DNA from: Prevotella melaninogenica
Lineage (GTDB): Bacteria; Bacteroidota; Bacteroidia; Bacteroidales; Bacteroidaceae
Length of the DNA stretch: 64,000 bases
NCBI RefSeq assembly: GCF_018127965.1
Contig: NZ_CP072350.1
Location: 1,240,001 to 1,304,000 of the forward strand
Direction: 5' to 3'
Shown: one piece after another, positions 44,541 through 55,432 of the stretch
Layout of the letters: each line of letters begins with the position of its first letter
How positions within the stretch are numbered: the stretch's first letter is position 1
Made by a program: the position numbers and the translations under genes
Notes under the pieces: model-generated
What the model was told of the DNA's origin: nothing
What the model saw: the letters and a program-made list of their open reading frames with translations, nothing else
Databases searched by the model: none

Positions 44541-46484
44541 TTAGCCCAAGTTTAACACCCACCTTCGCCTAATTGTTGCTGTCACCATACTTTCCTCGTT
44601 TTTCTTATGGGCTCTGTGTCCTACAAATTTTATTCTTTTGAATGGTGAGTGTTTTAAGTCCAACTTATCGTATATTTGTTTTGCTTGCTTCGAAGGACTA
44701 CTACATTGGCGCATCTCGATGGTTTCACCTAATGGATTCTTCCCTTTTGTGGTGACGAGCTTTTGGATGCTCATACGTCGTACTATCTCGGTCCAGTAAC
44801 AGGATTCTCCTTCTCGTTTTAATTGACAACGGATGGTGTTTACCACCCAGTAGGCTAATAAACCGAAGAAAAGGTGTGCATCGCTTCGCTCATCTTTCTG
44901 ATGATAGATAGGACGGAGGTTGAGATCATTCTTTAGTTGTCTGTTCGTACATTCTATCTCACGAATAAGATTGTAGTATTCCCATGTCACACGCTCAGAA
45001 AGTGTCCTGACATTGCTGCGGAGGAAATAGACTCCGTGACCAGATTCCATTTCCGAGAGGTCTTTTATCTCCCAGTCTACACGCAGCATCTCCTTGGGTT
45101 TCTTCTCGTTTTTTATGTAGCTAATCCGGTAGAACTTCACTATAGAATGGTACTTCTGTATGGCACGTCCTGTACGTTCAACAACCTTTTCATAGGTTTT
45201 TGTTCCACCTTTCTTGGAGATTCCTTCGTTTATCCTCTGCAGTTCCATCTCAAAACGCTCTCTCCAAACCCTGTTCATGGACGACTCTGTCATAGCTTTC
45301 GAAGGAGATGTTATTTCGAGATAATAATCCTCATCATCCTCTGTCTTAACCTCTTTCAGCGTTATCTTCTGCCGACGGGCATCCATTACCGTAACGCTCT
45401 TGTTATCATCACTGAGCGTATAGTCTTTCATTTTCGTACGGGATACGCAGAGATAATTGTAACCCTTTCTCTTTATTAGCTCCAAGTTCTCTTCCGTGGC
45501 AACACCTGCATCCATGACAACGAGCGTATCCTTTGTTCGTGATGGATTCCTCTTTGCTAACGTATCAATCATATTGGGTAGAGACTTGGGATCTGCTGTA
45601 TTACCCTCCAAGATAGAAGAATAACGTATAAAACCTTCTTTATTGATACATAATGCAAGTACAAGTAGCTTACAGTCAGAGCGTTTTTCTTTTGAACGAC
45701 CGAACTTGGCTTTATCACTATTACGCTTACTACCCTCGAAATAGAAGTTGGTTAAGTCGAAGAGCATCAACTTGTTGTCTATATTCAAGAGATCGTCAGT
45801 AACGCTGCACAAATGACGCTCTAACTGTTCCTTTAGTTCATATAACTTGTCAGTGATTTTATACAGAGAATTGATCCCTGGTGTCCAGCCAGGAGCTCCA
45901 CTATAAAGTTCAGCGGCAGCCGAGTTATCGCGCAAATAATAATAAGATGAACATTCAGAGACAGCATATACCGTACGGACAATCAATGCTGACAAAGCCG
46001 TGTGTATCGCATTCTCCGTCCACCCATTTTTGCGCAGAAAACCCTCTAACTGCAGCTTGTCTATTGTCTGCTTGCAGAGCCACTCTGCGCCAACATTCCT
46101 TGCGTCAGTATAGTTTGCCGTCTCAAGGTCAATATAGTTCTCATATTTTCTCAGCGACTTCTGCTCTTCCTTATTAAACCGATCGATTCCACCTTCTTTC
46201 TCCATACGGCTCCACCATTCGTCAGCCTTTGCCTGTTCAATAGGAGTAAGTCCGTCAAGATGTTTTTTAAAAAGCGAGGGTGTACTTCTGGTTTTGAAGC
46301 GTTCGGTAAGAGCGTATGCAATTTTTCGAACCTGTACAGCAGTAAGTGAAAGTTCGAACCCGATGTTCAACAGAATTAGCGAATGTACATGACCCTGCAC
46401 ATCACGATATGACTCCTTGATGCGATAATAAGGAGCTATGTCGCCTGTGGCAGGGTTGAATCGTGTCTGTACATTTGCGTGCAT
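44541..46484 (-). CDS. IS1634-family DDE transposase
   Basis: 647 aa. DDE elements of the IS4-like fold are seen: LMLFDLTNFYFEG (first Asp), VVMDAGVATEENLELIKRKGYNYL (second Asp), and the YREK-like YYNLIREIECTNRQLKNDL holding the Glu. The frame is unbroken. The stop codon TAA (44541-44543) lies just outside the left inverted repeat: codons VLNLG read through the end sequence itself. The stop may therefore be supplied by the flanking DNA. Confidence 0.88.
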   Translation of the reverse strand: MHANVQTRFNPATGDIAPYYRIKESYRDVQGHVHSLILLNIGFELSLTAVQVRKIAYALTERFKTRSTPSLFKKHLDGLTPIEQAKADEWWSRMEKEGGIDRFNKEEQKSLRKYENYIDLETANYTDARNVGAEWLCKQTIDKLQLEGFLRKNGWTENAIHTALSALIVRTVYAVSECSSYYYLRDNSAAAELYSGAPGWTPGINSLYKITDKLYELKEQLERHLCSVTDDLLNIDNKLMLFDLTNFYFEGSKRNSDKAKFGRSKEKRSDCKLLVLALCINKEGFIRYSSILEGNTADPKSLPNMIDTLAKRNPSRTKDTLVVMDAGVATEENLELIKRKGYNYLCVSRTKMKDYTLSDDNKSVTVMDARRQKITLKEVKTEDDEDYYLEITSPSKAMTESSMNRVWRERFEMELQRINEGISKKGGTKTYEKVVERTGRAIQKYHSIVKFYRISYIKNEKKPKEMLRVDWEIKDLSEMESGHGVYFLRSNVRTLSERVTWEYYNLIREIECTNRQLKNDLNLRPIYHQKDERSDAHLFFGLLAYWVVNTIRCQLKREGESCYWTEIVRRMSIQKLVTTKGKNPLGETIEMRQCSSPSKQAKQIYDKLDLKHSPFKRIKFVGHRAHKKNEESMVTATIRRRWVLNLG

Positions 46485-46825: not shown

Positions 46826-48244
46826 ATGAAACGTAAGACATGGCGTAAAAACCATAAGTGGATTGGTATCATCATAACATTCTTCTTAGTAATGTTCTGC
46901 CTTTCGGGTATTGTTCTCAATCATCGTCAACTCTTTTCTGATATTAATGTAAGCCGTGGAATATTGCCTGGTCAGTATGAATTCAACCAATGGAACAACG
47001 GATTACTACGTGGAACATTACGCTACAAAGATAATAAAAACAAAGATAAGGTGTTCATATATGGCGCAGCGGGTGTCATTCAAACCGATACAACTGCTTC
47101 TCATTTCACCGAATACAACCAAGGTCTACCTACTGGTGCAGACTATCGACAGATGCGAGGAATGGCTAAGACCCCACAAAATGACCTCTTTGCGGTTAGC
47201 GTCATGGACTTATATAAATTAGGAAAGAACGCATCTTGGCAAAAAGTAGACTTACCTAAGCAAGAGGATGACGAACTATTGACAGACATCACCACCCATG
47301 GTGATACGCTCATCGTTCTTTCTCGCTCTCACCTCTACTATGCTACTGCCCCTTATAAGAAGTTTACTTGTCTCACACTACAAGCTGGTGAGGGGAATGA
47401 GGGGAAGGTATCATTGTTCCGTCAAATATGGTTATTGCATAGTGGTGCACTGTTTGGAACCGTAGGAAAACTCATTGTAGACGGAATTGGAATCGTCTTA
47501 ATTATCCTTTGTGTGACAGGTATATGGTATTGGATTCGTCGCAAAACAGTATCAATGGTCGTTTGGCATACAAAGATTGGGCATTACACATTCGCCTTGA
47601 CGCTATTTATCGCAATAACAGGATGGGCATTACGTCCTCCACTGATGATTCTCCTTGCCACGAACAGTACGAAACCATTGCCTGGCACGACTTTAGACAA
47701 TGATAATACTTGGAATGATAAACTAAGAATGATTCGATATGATGAGCAAGCTCACGACTGGCTCATCTCGACTTCGGAAGGTTTCTACTCTCTTAAGAAT
47801 CTCTCTTCCAAGCCAACACCTATCACCACAGCACCCCCAGTGAGTGTAATGGGGCAAAACGTTTGGCAATATGCAAACAACAAATCATGGATAGTAGGCT
47901 CCTTCGATGGTCTGTTCTACTGGGATCGTAAGAATAACGTCGTACTTTACTACAATGATGCTATGGTCTCTACTCCCGGTATACCGGGTACTGCACCAGA
48001 CGAACAGACAATCTCCGGCTATAGTTCTGACTTCACAAACAAGGAATGTATAGCCACCTATTTCCAAGGTTCATCCTTCGCAAAACAGCCAGAAGAACTG
48101 AAAGATAAGCCCATGTCGCTTTGGAGTCTTGCTTTAGAGGTGCACACAGGTAGAATCTATGCCGGTGCATTAGGCTCCTTCCTCTTCATTTTCGTCATCG
48201 GCATCCTCATCATCTTCACCCTCGTGTCAGGTAAAAAGGCGTAG
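46826..48244 (+). CDS. PepSY-domain membrane protein (PiuB-like)
   Basis: 472 aa. N-terminal helix WIGIIITFFLVMFCLSGIVLNHR, a central pair (LIVDGIGIVLIILCVTGIWYWIRRK, then FALTLFIAITGWALRPPL) and a C-terminal helix (FLFIFVIGILIIFTLV) match the PepSY-associated membrane family. A large periplasmic region lies between. Many members are induced by iron limitation and sit near siderophore receptors; here no such neighbour exists, so the role is uncertain. Confidence 0.82.
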   Translation: MKRKTWRKNHKWIGIIITFFLVMFCLSGIVLNHRQLFSDINVSRGILPGQYEFNQWNNGLLRGTLRYKDNKNKDKVFIYGAAGVIQTDTTASHFTEYNQGLPTGADYRQMRGMAKTPQNDLFAVSVMDLYKLGKNASWQKVDLPKQEDDELLTDITTHGDTLIVLSRSHLYYATAPYKKFTCLTLQAGEGNEGKVSLFRQIWLLHSGALFGTVGKLIVDGIGIVLIILCVTGIWYWIRRKTVSMVVWHTKIGHYTFALTLFIAITGWALRPPLMILLATNSTKPLPGTTLDNDNTWNDKLRMIRYDEQAHDWLISTSEGFYSLKNLSSKPTPITTAPPVSVMGQNVWQYANNKSWIVGSFDGLFYWDRKNNVVLYYNDAMVSTPGIPGTAPDEQTISGYSSDFTNKECIATYFQGSSFAKQPEELKDKPMSLWSLALEVHTGRIYAGALGSFLFIFVIGILIIFTLVSGKKA

Positions 48245-48284
48245 GGGTTATTGCTAAAAAAATTGATTGCATTGCGATTAAACC

Positions 48285-48370
48285 CAAATCGGTCATTAGA
48301 AGCTAAACATATTTTGGTCTAATGACCGATTTGTGTATAAATTAATTGCGATGCAATTAATTTATACACA
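48285..48370. repeat. Two perfect back-to-back hairpins
   Basis: CAAATCGGTCATTAGA (48285-48300) pairs with TCTAATGACCGATTTG (48318-48333). Immediately after, TGTGTATAAATTAATTGC (48332-48349) pairs with GCAATTAATTTATACACA (48353-48370). Stems are 16 and 18 bp without mismatch. It lies between the PepSY stop and the cas9 promoter and may insulate the CRISPR locus or be a small mobile repeat. Confidence 0.8.
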
Positions 48371-48461: not shown

Positions 48462-48492
48462 TTGCTCCTTAAGAAAATAAATATTAACTTTG
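48462..48492 (+). promoter_or_regulatory. Promoter of cas9
   Basis: TTG (48462-48464), exactly 20 nt, TAACTTTG (48485-48492). Transcription would begin near 48498, giving a leader of about 134 nt that contains the complete complement of the tracrRNA. Confidence 0.65.
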
Positions 48493-48506
48493 CCACTATA
48501 AAACAC

Positions 48507-48582
48507 AAAAAAAGAGCGAGTTGCCCCGCTCTGTTTGTTTTCACAACGGAATAATCCTTATTGTGACTTGCTTAAAAATCTG
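48507..48582 (-). ncRNA. tracrRNA
   Basis: On the minus strand the anti-repeat CAGATTTTTAAGCAAGTCAC plus AAT (48582-48560) pairs with the first 23 nt of the crRNA repeat, with three G-U pairs and no mismatch. Next come the AAGGATTATTCC nexus-like stem with GTTGTG, and an AGAGCG/CGCTCT hairpin with T7 (48532-48507) as terminator. This is the usual Bacteroidetes type II-C tracrRNA layout, about 76 nt. It lies wholly inside the cas9 leader on the opposite strand. Confidence 0.85.
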
Positions 48583-48585
48583 CTG

Positions 48586-48617
48586 CAAATATAGAAAGAA
48601 TATAACTAACAACCAAA
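48586..48617 (-). promoter_or_regulatory. Promoter of tracrRNA
   Basis: Minus strand TTTG (48614-48617), exactly 20 nt, TATATTTG (48586-48593). The predicted start coincides with the first base of the anti-repeat (about 48582), so no 5' trimming is needed. It sits 15 nt before the cas9 ATG and fires away from it. Confidence 0.75.
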
Positions 48618-48631
48618 TAAAACAAGAAAAA

Positions 48632-51600
48632 ATGAAAACAATTCTTGGATTAGACTTGGGAACCAATAGTATTGGTTGGGCTAAAGTCTGCGTTGACGAC
48701 AACGGAAACTACACACGTGAGATTAAACTTGGCAGCCGTATCATCCCTATGAGCCAAGACACACTCAGTAACTTTGACAAGGGAGTAACCGAATCTCCTA
48801 CAGCTGTACGAACTGGATTCCGAGGTATTAGAAGAATCAGAGAGCGTGCATTGCAAAGACGCGAACGCTTACACAGAGTCCTACACGTGATGGGATTCTT
48901 GCCTCTACACTACGAGAATGCCATAGGATGGAATCGAGAGGAAGCTACAACGTATGGCAAGTTCCTTGATAATGGGGAACCTAAGTTAGCATGGGAGAAA
49001 CAAGAGGACGGTTCTATGCGTTTCCTCTTTATGGATTCTTTCTATGAAATGATGGCTGATTTTGCAAAATATCAACCGGGAATGGTTGCTGATGGAAGAA
49101 AGATTCCACTGGACTGGACACTGTATTACTTACGTAAGAAAGCTCTTACACAAGCTATCAGAAAAGAAGAATTGGCTTGGTTACTACTCAATTTTAATCA
49201 GAAACGTGGATACTATCAGTTACGTGGAGAGGAAGAAGAAGAGGATCCTACTAAACGTGAGGAATATTATGAACTAAAAGTTGTAAGTGTTGAGGCTGCC
49301 GAAGAAGGAAAAGGAGGTAACACGTGGTATAATGTTACATTAGAGAACGGCTGGATATATCGTCGACAGAGCAAGATTGAACTAAATGACTGGGTCGGGA
49401 AAGTAAGACCATTTATTGTTACAACAGAATACGAAATAGATGGAGTTACCATTAAAAAGGATAAAAATGGAGAAGTGAAACGTTCTTTCCGAGCGCCAAG
49501 TGAAAACGATTGGGGGCTGCGTAAGAAACGAACTGAAAGTCTCTTAGAGGAATCTGGTAAGACTGTTGGAGCATTTATCTACAATCATATACTTTCAGAA
49601 CCCGCTGATAAAATCAGAGGTAATTTTATCCGTACCATTGAACGAAAGTTCTATAAGAAAGAACTGGAAGCTATTCTACGTGAACAATCAAAACATCATA
49701 AAGAATTAAAAGACATCGATACGCTTATAGCCTGTATAAAAGAGTTATATCCTAACAACAAGCCGCATCAAGATAGTTTGATGAAGAAAGACATGTCGTA
49801 TCTTTTGATTACAGACTTGATATTCTACCAAAGACCTCTAAAAAGCAAGAAATCTCTAATTGCAGACTGCCCATACGAGTATTATAAGTATGTGATAAAA
49901 GAGACGGGGGAAATCAAGCGACAAGGAATCAAATGTATTGCGAAGTCAAACCCTTATTATCAGGAGTTCCGCTTATGGCAATTCATCATCAACCTCAGAC
50001 TCTTTGATAGAAATAATGATAAAGAAGTCACTTCTGAGTATTTGTCTTCTATGGAAGATTACACCAGACTGTTTACATATCTCAACGACAGAAAAGACAT
50101 TAATCAAGAAATTCTATTGAAAGATTTCTTCAAACAAAAGAAAGTAAAGAGGGGTATGGAAAAGGAATTTCCTATCCGCTGGAACTATATTGAAGACAAA
50201 GAGAAGAAATATCCATGCGGCGAGACACGTCACGAGCTACTTGTAGCATTAGGTAAAGCTGGTATAGATCATAGTTGGTTAGGTGATAAAGAGCGATTCT
50301 ACCGACTTTGGCATCTACTCTATTCCGTTGAATCCAAAGAAGAAGCAGAAGGAGCCTTAAGAAAACTTGTTGATAATGATGACTTTGTAAATGCTTTCTT
50401 AAAGATAAAGCCATTTAAAAAGGAATATGGTGCTTATTCTGAGAAAGCTATAAAGAAACTATTGGCTGTGATGCGTATGGGGAATCTGTGGAATGAGGTT
50501 GACATTTGCGAACAGACGAGAAATAGAATTCAAAGCATCATAAATGGGGATATTGACGAGAAAATTAAAGAACGAATGAATCGTACTTTCAGTCAATTAT
50601 CCGACTTCCAAGGACTTCCAGAGTGGTTAGCGTGCTATGTTGTATATGGACGACACTCAGAAGCTACAGATATACAACGATGGACAAAGCCAGAAAACTT
50701 GATGGCATATATTAATGGCTTCAAGCAGCATTCACTCCGTAATCCTATTGTTGAGCAGTGTATCCTTGAAACTCTCAGAACAGTTCACGATATTTGGAAG
50801 GAAGCAGGACACATTGATGAGATTCATATAGAGTTAGGAAGGAGTATGAAGAGTACTGCCGACCAGCGTGCACGTATGTCTAAAAGTATTATGCAGAATG
50901 AGAATACCAACCTGCGCATCAAGAGTCTCTTAATGGAACTGAAGAACGCAAAAGAGTTTGAGAATGTACGCCCATACTCACCTATGCAGCAGGAAATTCT
51001 AAGAATATACGAGGAGGGGGCCTTGCAAGAATTAACTAAAGAGGATGCCCAATATAATGAGATTTCTAAGATTTCGCAAATGGCACAACCTTCTGCAAAC
51101 GAATTACTTAAATACAGACTTTGGTTAGAACAGAAGTATTGTTCACCCTATACTGGTAAACCTATTTCTCTGTCAAAACTATTCACATCTGCTTATCAAA
51201 TAGAACATATTATCCCACAGAGCAGATATTTTGATGATTCATTCACAAATAAGGTCATCTGTGAAGCTGAAGTAAATCAGCTTAAGAGTAATATGTTAGG
51301 TTACGAATTCATTAAGAAACATGGTGGCGAAATTGTGCACTGTACAATGGTTGGTGATGTGAAGATACTTGATGCAAAGGAATATTATAACTTCGTAACA
51401 GAGCATTATACCAACAACAGACGTAAGAAGGAAAAGCTCTTATTGGATGATATACCACAAGAATTCCTTAATCGTCAAATGAATGACAGTAGATATATCA
51501 GTAAGAAAGTGATGGCAATCCTTTCTAATATTGTACGTGAAGAAGATGAACAAGAAGCAAAATCTAAGTTTGTTATCGCATGTTCAGGAGGCATAACGGA

Positions 51601-53074
51601 CCGACTGAAACAGGATTGGGGACTAAATGATATATGGAACAGCATCGTTTATCCTCGTTTTGAACGCCTAAACAAACTCACCAATACAGAGAACTTTGGA
51701 CGTTGGGAGAACAAAGAAGGGAAACAAGTATTCCAGACATCTGTACCTTTGGAACTACAAAGAGGTTTTAGCAAGAAGCGTATAGACCACCGCCATCATG
51801 CTATGGATGCACTCGTCATAGCCTGTGCATCAAATAACATTATCAACTACCTCAATAATGAATCTGCCAAGAGTCAAGAGAAGAGAGAAGACTTGAGAAA
51901 GAAACTTTGTGATAAGAATCGTATTATTCGAAAACCTTGGGAGACCTTCACGCAAGATGCACATACAGCTCTTGAGAATGTCGTAGTAAGCTTTAAGAAT
52001 TATGTGCGTGTCATCAACAAGGCAACAAACTATTACGAGAAGTATGATAAAAATGGCAAGAAAGGAATAGCGGAGCAGAAAGGACAAGACATGTGGGCTA
52101 TAAGAAAGCCTATGCATAAAGAGACTGTTTTTGGTCAAGTGAATCTACGTCGTAAAGTTACTGTTAAACTAAAGGATGCACTTGAGAAAATTCCTGCTAT
52201 CTGCAACAAGGAACTGCGCGACTACATCAATAATTTAGTAGCGAAACAATTCAATAAGAAACAAATACTTGCACATTTCAAAAGCATCAACTATCGCCTA
52301 AATATGAAATATGTAGACAAGGTTTACGTATGGCAATACAGTGATGAAAAAGAACCTATGGTCGCTACACGTAAGTCTGTCGACACATCATTTGATGATA
52401 AGCGCATTGCTACCATTACTGATACTGGTATCCAAAAGATTCTTCGCAACTACCTCGAAACAAAAGACAATGATCCAAACATTGCCTTTACCCCAGAGGG
52501 CATAGCAGAGATGAATAAGCATATCACTGAATATAACAATGGTAAGCAACACCAACCTATTCTGAAGGTTAGAGTCTCAGAACCTAAGGGAGCTAAATAC
52601 CAAGTAGGTGAAACAGGCAACAAAACGTCAAAGTTTGTTGAAGCACAAAAAGGGACAAACCTTTACTTTGCAATCTACGAAGATAAAGAAGGTAATCGTT
52701 CATACAGTACTATCCCATTAAATGAAGTTATAGAACGATTGAAACAAGGATTGTCTCCAGCAGAAGATTTGAATAAACGAGGAGAAAAGTTAAAATTCTA
52801 TCTTTCTCCAAATGACTTGGTGTATGTTCCTACTGAAGAAGAAAAGCTATCCAGTGAGTGCAAACTCAACAAAGAACAGATTTATAAGATGGTTAGTGCG
52901 ACAAGTAATCAGTGCTTCTTCACCCCACACAGAACAGCTAATAGTATCGTCAACAAAGTAGAATATTCTCCACTTAATAAAATGGAGAAAACTATTTTGG
53001 GTGAAATGATTAAATCAGTCTGCTGGAAACTTGAAGTCGACCGATTAGGGAACATACATAAGATTATAAAGTAA
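48632..53074 (+). CDS. cas9: Type II-C Cas9 nuclease
   Basis: 1,480 aa from the ATG at 48632. An in-frame TTG at 48521 lies inside the tracrRNA and is not the start. RuvC-I LGLDLGTNSIGWAKV carries Asp8; an arginine-rich bridge helix follows (GFRGIRRIRERALQRRERLHRVL); RuvC-II DEIHIELGRSMKS has Glu734. HNH is IEHIIPQSRYFDDSFTNKV with His859, and RuvC-III DHRHHAMDALVIA has His1056/Asp1059. All catalytic residues are kept. It is longer than compact II-C enzymes such as the Neisseria protein (about 1,080 aa). cas1 follows 11 nt later. Confidence 0.96.
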   Translation: MKTILGLDLGTNSIGWAKVCVDDNGNYTREIKLGSRIIPMSQDTLSNFDKGVTESPTAVRTGFRGIRRIRERALQRRERLHRVLHVMGFLPLHYENAIGWNREEATTYGKFLDNGEPKLAWEKQEDGSMRFLFMDSFYEMMADFAKYQPGMVADGRKIPLDWTLYYLRKKALTQAIRKEELAWLLLNFNQKRGYYQLRGEEEEEDPTKREEYYELKVVSVEAAEEGKGGNTWYNVTLENGWIYRRQSKIELNDWVGKVRPFIVTTEYEIDGVTIKKDKNGEVKRSFRAPSENDWGLRKKRTESLLEESGKTVGAFIYNHILSEPADKIRGNFIRTIERKFYKKELEAILREQSKHHKELKDIDTLIACIKELYPNNKPHQDSLMKKDMSYLLITDLIFYQRPLKSKKSLIADCPYEYYKYVIKETGEIKRQGIKCIAKSNPYYQEFRLWQFIINLRLFDRNNDKEVTSEYLSSMEDYTRLFTYLNDRKDINQEILLKDFFKQKKVKRGMEKEFPIRWNYIEDKEKKYPCGETRHELLVALGKAGIDHSWLGDKERFYRLWHLLYSVESKEEAEGALRKLVDNDDFVNAFLKIKPFKKEYGAYSEKAIKKLLAVMRMGNLWNEVDICEQTRNRIQSIINGDIDEKIKERMNRTFSQLSDFQGLPEWLACYVVYGRHSEATDIQRWTKPENLMAYINGFKQHSLRNPIVEQCILETLRTVHDIWKEAGHIDEIHIELGRSMKSTADQRARMSKSIMQNENTNLRIKSLLMELKNAKEFENVRPYSPMQQEILRIYEEGALQELTKEDAQYNEISKISQMAQPSANELLKYRLWLEQKYCSPYTGKPISLSKLFTSAYQIEHIIPQSRYFDDSFTNKVICEAEVNQLKSNMLGYEFIKKHGGEIVHCTMVGDVKILDAKEYYNFVTEHYTNNRRKKEKLLLDDIPQEFLNRQMNDSRYISKKVMAILSNIVREEDEQEAKSKFVIACSGGITDRLKQDWGLNDIWNSIVYPRFERLNKLTNTENFGRWENKEGKQVFQTSVPLELQRGFSKKRIDHRHHAMDALVIACASNNIINYLNNESAKSQEKREDLRKKLCDKNRIIRKPWETFTQDAHTALENVVVSFKNYVRVINKATNYYEKYDKNGKKGIAEQKGQDMWAIRKPMHKETVFGQVNLRRKVTVKLKDALEKIPAICNKELRDYINNLVAKQFNKKQILAHFKSINYRLNMKYVDKVYVWQYSDEKEPMVATRKSVDTSFDDKRIATITDTGIQKILRNYLETKDNDPNIAFTPEGIAEMNKHITEYNNGKQHQPILKVRVSEPKGAKYQVGETGNKTSKFVEAQKGTNLYFAIYEDKEGNRSYSTIPLNEVIERLKQGLSPAEDLNKRGEKLKFYLSPNDLVYVPTEEEKLSSECKLNKEQIYKMVSATSNQCFFTPHRTANSIVNKVEYSPLNKMEKTILGEMIKSVCWKLEVDRLGNIHKIIK

Positions 53075-53085
53075 AAGTATTGCCT

Positions 53086-54367
<1,282 letters not shown>

Positions 54368-54557: not shown

Positions 54558-55432
54558 GTTGTTTTAGATACCACAAAGGTACAGATTTTCAAGCAAATCA
54601 CAACTTATCTGAAAAATCTAAAATATTAACAACAGTTGTTTTAGATACCACAAAGGTACAGATTTTCAAGCAAATCACAACTTATACTATAGTAACTATC
54701 AAGACCTTCGTGTTGTTTTAGATACCACAAAGGTACAGATTTTCAAGCAAATCACAACCAGTAAAGGTTACCTACACTGCAACATTAAGTTGTTTTAGAT
54801 ACCACAAAGGTACAGATTTTCAAGCAAATCACAACCAAGCGAGGTGACAAATATTTTGATATAACGTTGTTTTAGATACCACAAAGGTACAGATTTTCAA
54901 GCAAATCACAACTGAACCACGTTATTTGTCAAACAAAGAAAGTTGTTTTAGATACCACAAAGGTACAGATTTTCAAGCAAATCACAACGAAGTACCCTCA
55001 CTTATCGTACTTTAATCGGTTGTTTTAGATACCACAAAGGTACAGATTTTCAAGCAAATCACAACGAAGTACCCTCACTTATCGTACTTTAATCGGTTGT
55101 TTTAGATACCACAAAGGTACAGATTTTCAAGCAAATCACAACATGCTGTTAGAGTTCCACCCCTGCACGTGTGTTGTTTTAGATACCACAAAGGTACAGA
55201 TTTTCAAGCAAATCACAACTCAGATGCGTTATCGTCCTTATCCTAAGGAGTTGTTTTAGATACCACAAAGGTACAGATTTTCAAGCAAATCACAACCAGA
55301 TGCGGATTTGGATTATCATGAGTTTAGTTGTTTTAGATACCACAAAGGTACAGATTTTCAAGCAAATCACAACAGGACTTGGTTATTCTCTTGACCCTCT
55401 GAGTTGTTTTAGATACCACAAAGGTACAGATT
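54558..55432 (-). CRISPR. Type II-C CRISPR array: 11 full 47-bp repeats, 1 truncated repeat, 11 spacers
   Basis: Full repeats start at 54558, 54635, 54712, 54789, 54866, 54942, 55019, 55096, 55173, 55250 and 55327. A last repeat at 55403-55432 keeps only 30 bp. Spacers are 30 nt (two of 29). Spacers 6 (54989-55018) and 7 (55066-55095) are identical. By tracrRNA pairing the crRNA strand is minus, where the repeat begins GTTGTGATTTGCTTG. On that strand each repeat holds TTG (positions 2-4), 19 nt, TACCTTTG (24-31), a full promoter. All full repeats are identical. Confidence 0.98.

Follow-up and report, generated by a model that had tools for sequence, protein, structure and literature searches.

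The window, i.e., the whole stretch of 64,000 nucleotides analyzed here, contains a type II-C CRISPR-Cas9 locus, with cas9, cas1 and cas2 and without csn2 or cas4 (Table 1). The host genome is of the Prevotella type, and the closest named relative of the window's Cas9, at 90% identity, is that of Prevotella jejuni. The three cas genes, each with an NCBIfam match, are the + strand open reading frames of at least 80 aa from cas9 up to the array. The assignment of cas2 follows from a match to TIGR01573 (E 1.4e-19) that begins at residue 23 of the 53996-54364 translation. Between the upstream gene (46826-48244) and the predicted cas9 promoter lies a 23-nt inverted repeat, at 48278-48340, which is perhaps a bidirectional terminator. 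Further upstream of the locus, a 647-aa open reading frame on the minus strand (44541-46484) looks like an insertion-sequence transposase, a label given by eye.

Table 1. Features of the locus in window coordinates. Promoters, leader and RNA boundaries are predictions.
Feature	Position	Strand	Remarks
P_cas9, predicted cas9 promoter	48462..48492	+	TTG-N20-TAACTTTG; start expected near 48497
Predicted cas9 5' leader	48497..48631	+	~135 nt; start inferred from the motif; contains the complement of the whole tracrRNA
tracrRNA	48581-48507	-	~75 nt; identified by repeat pairing, fold and single genomic core
tracrRNA intrinsic terminator	48507..48532	-	hairpin followed by seven T; mirror hairpin in the cas9 leader
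Conserved tracrRNA core	48542..48565	-	end of the anti-repeat plus nexus hairpin
Anti-repeat of tracrRNA	48560..48581	-	+ strand reads as a repeat-like sequence within the cas9 leader
P_tracr, predicted tracrRNA promoter	48617-48586	-	TTTG-N20-TATATTTG
cas9	48632..53074	+	1480 aa; TIGR01865, E 4.1e-119
cas1	53080..54018	+	TIGR03639, E 6.5e-92
ORF containing cas2	53939..54367	+	true cas2 start internal to the ORF
CRISPR array	54558..55432	-	11 full 47-nt repeats and one truncated repeat

The anti-repeat of the predicted tracrRNA pairs with the array repeat over 22 contiguous bases and is followed by the nexus and the terminator hairpin. Its 24-nt core is present in a single copy in the 3.2-Mb genome when up to two mismatches are allowed, and the antisense overlap described below therefore concerns the sole tracrRNA gene found. 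A second tracrRNA gene, which would make the overlap harmless, was rejected on the same count. No tracrRNA was recognized by Rfam, whose two weak matches, at 48266-48352, are to a microRNA family and fall far below the cut-off.

The promoter motif of the primary sigma factor in Bacteroidota consists of TAnnTTTG at -7 and TTTG or TTG near -33 (consensus taken from the accessible part of PMC7366714). Both P_cas9 and P_tracr conform to it: each has a complete TTG at -33, TAnnTTTG at -7 and 20 bases between them, and the two are opposed in orientation. The initial annotation had described two near-perfect promoters, one for cas9 and one for the tracrRNA, facing each other, and both are present where it placed them, as full matches to the consensus. 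It had put the starts at 48498 for cas9 and 48582 for the tracrRNA, in close agreement with the 48497 and 48581 that the motif predicts, and had given the tracrRNA 76 nt compared with our ~75 nt. Outside the CRISPR array the motif TTG-N17-22-TAnnTTTG occurs at 16 sites in the window, both strands counted, and two of these are P_cas9 and P_tracr. The other 14 sites correspond to ~0.02 expected per strand per 171 bases, which means that one on each strand would arise by chance ~4 times in 10,000. This estimate is conservative because some of the 14 sites may themselves be genuine promoters.

The -33 element of P_tracr ends 14 nt upstream of the cas9 ATG, and the tracrRNA terminator sits ~10 bp inside the predicted transcribed region of cas9. 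The further claim that the cas9 leader carries the complete antisense of the tracrRNA holds for the predicted leader in the window, and the corresponding layout extends over a Cas9 clade (see below). Facing promoters with full antisense overlap are thus confirmed at the sequence level, and the layout is well supported. Over the relatives, an A stands five bases past the -7 G (G+5), the predicted start, in 38 of 48 distinct tracrRNA promoter sequences, and in the window pairing in the duplex begins with this A. The cas9 promoters have an A at G+5 in 28 of 47 sequences, a proportion that is not distinctive given the A-rich stretch in which it lies.

To compare relatives we scanned 399 genomes of the family, 71 of which had a Cas9 match; another scan contributed 11 named loci. 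Once duplicates and loci lacking the cas9 N-terminus had been removed, 68 loci remained for a first classification: 61 have an antisense tracrRNA upstream of cas9, found with the tracrRNA core pattern as the search tool, 3 have a tracrRNA on the cas9 strand, and 4 have none within 450 nt. The three with the tracrRNA on the cas9 strand (L057, L062 and L063) represent a third layout and belong to one Cas9 clade. In the four others (L056, L078, L089 and L095) no tracrRNA core was found up to 450 nt upstream of cas9, and it may be elsewhere. Seven more loci with an antisense tracrRNA joined later, for a total of 68 antisense loci with the window included; all expectations from dinucleotide shuffles and all Fisher tests cover the first 61. 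Loci L001 and L013-L041 repeat counted genomes or named records and were counted once, with L025 added later. L012 (no cas9 N-terminus) and L099 and L100 (duplicates of counted genomes) were also excluded.

The initial annotation had proposed an alignment of both promoters over related loci, and the main new result is that two discrete layouts emerge from it. The distance from the best-scoring tracrRNA -7 site to the cas9 ATG is bimodal: it is 46-58 nt in 24 loci (the short class) and 72-168 nt in 44 loci (the long class), and no locus of the 68 has a distance of 59 to 71 nt. At L045, L059 and L096 the best -7 site is oddly near the core, and shifting it would leave these loci in the long class. 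A TAnnTTTG box for the tracrRNA is found at 60 of the 68 loci, and at 55 of the first 61, compared with 3.0 expected from dinucleotide shuffles.

The two classes differ in where a TAnnTTTG box in the cas9 direction is found. Short-class loci have it beyond the tracrRNA (16/24) and never between the tracrRNA and the ATG (0/24); long-class loci rarely have it beyond the tracrRNA (3/44) and mostly have it between the tracrRNA and the ATG (35/44). For the first 61 loci, the shuffles predict a near-zone box at 0.2 of 23 short-class and 2.9 of 38 long-class loci; the corresponding values for the far zone are 1.6 of 23 and 2.9 of 38. Fisher tests of box position by class on the same loci give p = 1.3e-11 and 1.3e-7, values that are uncorrected for kinship. 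Facing predicted promoters are one of two discrete layouts, the short-class one, and it is this arrangement that the initial annotation had described. Prevotella jejuni DSM 26989, at locus L002, is another species with the facing layout. In the long class the predicted promoters stand back to back, and the transcripts expected from them do not overlap. We also considered a cas9 promoter hidden in the + strand repeat-like sequence and rejected it, since the stretch from P_tracr to the ATG is free of cas9-direction TAnnTTTG boxes throughout the short class.

Among the 16 distal boxes of the short class, 12 have a TTG at 18-21 nt, and 10 sit 54-58 nt upstream of the tracrRNA core. These 10 include L068 and L076, which are not near relatives of the window. 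A distal TAnnTTTG was absent from the searched zone at L003, L004, L007, L043, L066, L069, L077 and the later L025, and the first seven of these have no TTG-N18-21-TAnnTTTG within 900 nt. The short-class loci L066 and L069 are also without a -7 box in their repeats, and the cas9 frame of L066 is split. A wider sample of the phylum provided 11 loci with the cas9 N-terminus, several of them with poor tracrRNA boxes. Five of the 11 have at most 40 nt between the best tracrRNA -7 candidate and the ATG, and are without a cas9-direction box in the near and the far zone alike; six have the relaxed cas9-direction motif TAnnTTT[G/A] between the tracrRNA and the ATG.

The short class is largely a single lineage. 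Specifically, in a rapid maximum-likelihood phylogeny for 66 Cas9 proteins (one method, with SH-aLRT support and without bootstrap), which leaves out L004 and L068 because of early stops as well as the seven later-added loci, 19 of the 21 short-class Cas9s fall in one clade of 20 with an SH-aLRT support of 100. The twentieth member is L078, the locus without a tracrRNA found upstream of cas9. The two short-class Cas9s outside the clade are those of L043 and L066, and both loci are without a distal box. Within the clade, identity to the window's Cas9 drops to 51-52% (L088 and L069), and the facing layout is therefore old. Long branches were flagged in the tree for L060 and L088.

The same kind of promoter is predicted in the array. 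TTG-N19-TACCTTTG occurs on the minus strand in 11 of 11 full repeats, at 54558-55403, just past the part that pairs with the tracrRNA and reading into the spacer, and is likely to be a crRNA promoter. Repeat consensuses of the relatives contain GTTG-N17-22-TAnnTTTG in 45 of 50 cases, 43 of these with 19 bases between the elements. The count was made before any selection for the box and omits N-masked arrays and L063, for which the repeat call is another sequence. In 28 of 38 distinct repeats an A stands five bases past the -7 G, as a start site would predict. On this evidence cas9, the tracrRNA and the crRNAs may have one common promoter type, as is partly known from Flavobacterium.

An oppositely directed tracrRNA upstream of cas9 is already known (PMC5608340). 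The accessible part of that report describes II-C loci of Prevotella intermedia that resemble the window, with 47-nt repeats and a tracrRNA candidate upstream of cas9 and opposite to the cas operon. The same part reports no strong promoter for either tracrRNA candidate in either direction, whereas the window has the predicted P_tracr; facing promoters and antisense overlap, both predicted in the window, are undescribed there. Promoters embedded in II-C repeats are described in the available sections of work on Flavobacterium columnare and F. psychrophilum, with Neisseria as cited there (PMC8092290, PMC10309648). As here, where the case is motif-based, those sections give a crRNA transcript per repeat, a TTG at -33 in the repeat and TAnnTTTG before cas9. 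They name the TTG alone in the repeats, whereas we also find the -7 box, in the 45 of 50 consensuses above. They state that the mechanism of tracrRNA transcription was not revealed (PMC10309648), whereas the tracrRNA here has a predicted promoter of its own. For Riemerella anatipestifer, the available text reports no potential promoters in the repeats (PMC5006608). Our literature searches, which covered open-licence papers, turned up no account of II-C systems in which the cas9 and tracrRNA promoters face each other. To our knowledge, the promoter predictor used in the R. anatipestifer and P. intermedia studies was not made for Bacteroidota.

What could the facing layout do? The best explanation, to which we would give about even chances, is that the facing promoters lead to mutual transcriptional interference, combined with formation and cleavage of an RNA duplex. 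P_cas9, which would drive cas9-cas1-cas2, and P_tracr flank the tracrRNA gene, and the geometry of an interference pair, i.e., facing promoters with overlapping predicted transcripts, can be read from the sequence. A polymerase starting at P_cas9 would have to traverse the entire tracrRNA gene and P_tracr before reaching cas9, while a polymerase from P_tracr would head toward P_cas9 and halt ~10 bp before reaching the cas9 start. A polymerase on P_tracr would also cover the end of the cas9 leader. From this geometry we infer that each polymerase would obstruct the other: one template, at one moment, would give either cas9 mRNA or tracrRNA. Polymerase collision, one of the mechanisms named by the initial annotation, is consistent with this arrangement. 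Any tracrRNA free of Cas9 could then anneal along its entire length to the cas9 leader, giving a duplex that RNase III would cut. The outcome would be a bounded, anticorrelated supply of the two components, for which selection may have kept the layout. That the Cas9:tracrRNA ratio is set in this way, as the initial annotation suggested, is a reasonable guess.

Cis-antisense pairs with facing, overlapping promoters are a known geometry. Unlike in such pairs in general, one partner here is the guide RNA cofactor of the other partner's protein. The proposal resembles the tracr-L system of the Streptococcus pyogenes II-A locus, as described in the accessible part of PMC11417352, in that the tracrRNA locus would feed back on cas expression. 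In that system the feedback runs through a long tracrRNA that directs Cas9 to the cas promoter, whereas here facing transcription and antisense pairing are proposed. It also resembles the noncanonical crRNAs of the Campylobacter jejuni II-C system, in which, according to the sections available, the anti-repeat pairs with cellular mRNA (PMC8224270). That pairing is imperfect and involves mRNAs encoded elsewhere, whereas the cas9 mRNA here is predicted to contain an exact complement of the whole tracrRNA.

Other readings of the layout have to be weighed against interference. The overlap may be passive, P_tracr having come to adjoin the cas9 start and the cas9 promoter having been displaced upstream, without the overlap having a regulatory role of its own; we regard this as possible, though it is not what we would bet on. 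The 46-58 nt that the short class leaves between the -7 box and the ATG are occupied to about a third to a half by P_tracr itself, so that no second promoter fits there, and the layout may be locked in by lack of room without being regulatory. The long class, moreover, functions without overlap, and pairing leaves the predicted exposure of the start codon unaffected. However, the layout has been kept over a clade in which Cas9 identity to the window goes down to 51%, and the distal box is narrowly placed relative to the core, also at the two loci that are not near relatives. A role for the antisense RNA itself, in which pairing of the tracrRNA with the leader would set cas9 output through RNase III or translation and free tracrRNA would signal missing Cas9, appears rather unlikely. 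The complementarity is perfect over the whole tracrRNA, and the computed duplex of tracrRNA and cas9 leader, with kinetics ignored, reaches -141 kcal/mol compared with -29 kcal/mol for tracrRNA and repeat and -25 kcal/mol for the tracrRNA alone. The initial annotation had listed RNA pairing as a means of control, but as a control of translation it finds little in the computations: the predicted start-codon exposure barely moves on pairing, from a mean of 0.60 to 0.64 with a rise in 10 of 16 loci. Pairing that leads to cleavage by RNase III may still play a part. In the window it stays at 0.56-0.58 across all three states, and a leader cut at 48583 is predicted to leave the start region as open as before.

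Attenuation, also raised by the initial annotation, would stop cas9 transcription early at the mirror image of the tracrRNA terminator unless the hairpin is opened. The cas9 leader does form the hairpin, followed in the window by TGTTTGTTTT, but this T-rich stretch is interrupted by a G even there and is confined to the window's near relatives. It is absent in the distant short-class loci L068, L072-L076 and L088, which read TAAATG, TAGATG, TGGATG or TAATAG after the hairpin. We consider attenuation, for which the signal is not conserved, very improbable. The distal box might also not be the cas9 promoter at all, with cas9 being transcribed from a non-canonical promoter downstream of the tracrRNA or by read-through from the upstream gene. 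Several short-class loci are indeed without a distal box. Still, 16 distal boxes compare with 1.6 expected in 23 loci, most of them have a TTG at a suitable position (the 12 of 16 above), and in the window the 23-nt inverted repeat separates the upstream gene from the box. This too we hold to be very improbable. Because start-codon exposure is essentially unaltered and the mirror T run is unconserved, our order of preference is interference plus duplex formation, then a passive layout, then antisense control.

The control of Cas9 and tracrRNA supply in II-C systems is hardly known in Bacteroidota. If the picture drawn here is correct, one promoter type would drive cas9, the tracrRNA and every crRNA, and the order of the cas9 and tracrRNA promoters would divide the family into facing and back-to-back layouts. 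The two would amount to a natural experiment: related species that share these RNAs and the protein could be compared, some having the antisense overlap and some not. For cloning, some caution is advisable, as a construct with the sequence naturally found upstream of one of these cas9 genes also brings in a predicted tracrRNA promoter, antisense and no more than 50 nt from the start codon.

We take the crRNAs to be read from the minus strand of the array, the orientation in which the repeat pairs with the anti-repeat. Phage matches are weakly consistent with this: the fifth base on the 3' side is an A in 8 of 9 matches, from five spacers of three arrays, and the same small set suggests an NNNNA-like PAM in the 3' protospacer flank. 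The five spacers, from the arrays of the window, L002 and L006, match human-associated Microviridae records, one window spacer matching inside a major capsid gene. No phage in the collection matched a spacer of L093. A more speculative reading, and an unlikely one, is that the cas9 leader acts as a built-in decoy repeat: being the exact complement, each mRNA would capture one tracrRNA, serving as a sponge or being loaded into Cas9 like a noncanonical crRNA, and one-to-one pairing would couple Cas9 protein, tracrRNA and cas9 mRNA in a homeostatic circuit across the clade. Self-targeting would be avoided because the repeat-like sequence of the leader has a T, not an A, at the inferred fifth PAM position.

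The truncated repeat at 55403-55432, which closes the array on its crRNA-upstream side, retains the -7 box along with the end predicted to be transcribed, and is without both the tracrRNA-pairing part and the -33 TTG. At 54942-55095, two adjacent repeat-spacer units are identical, i.e., one spacer is duplicated.
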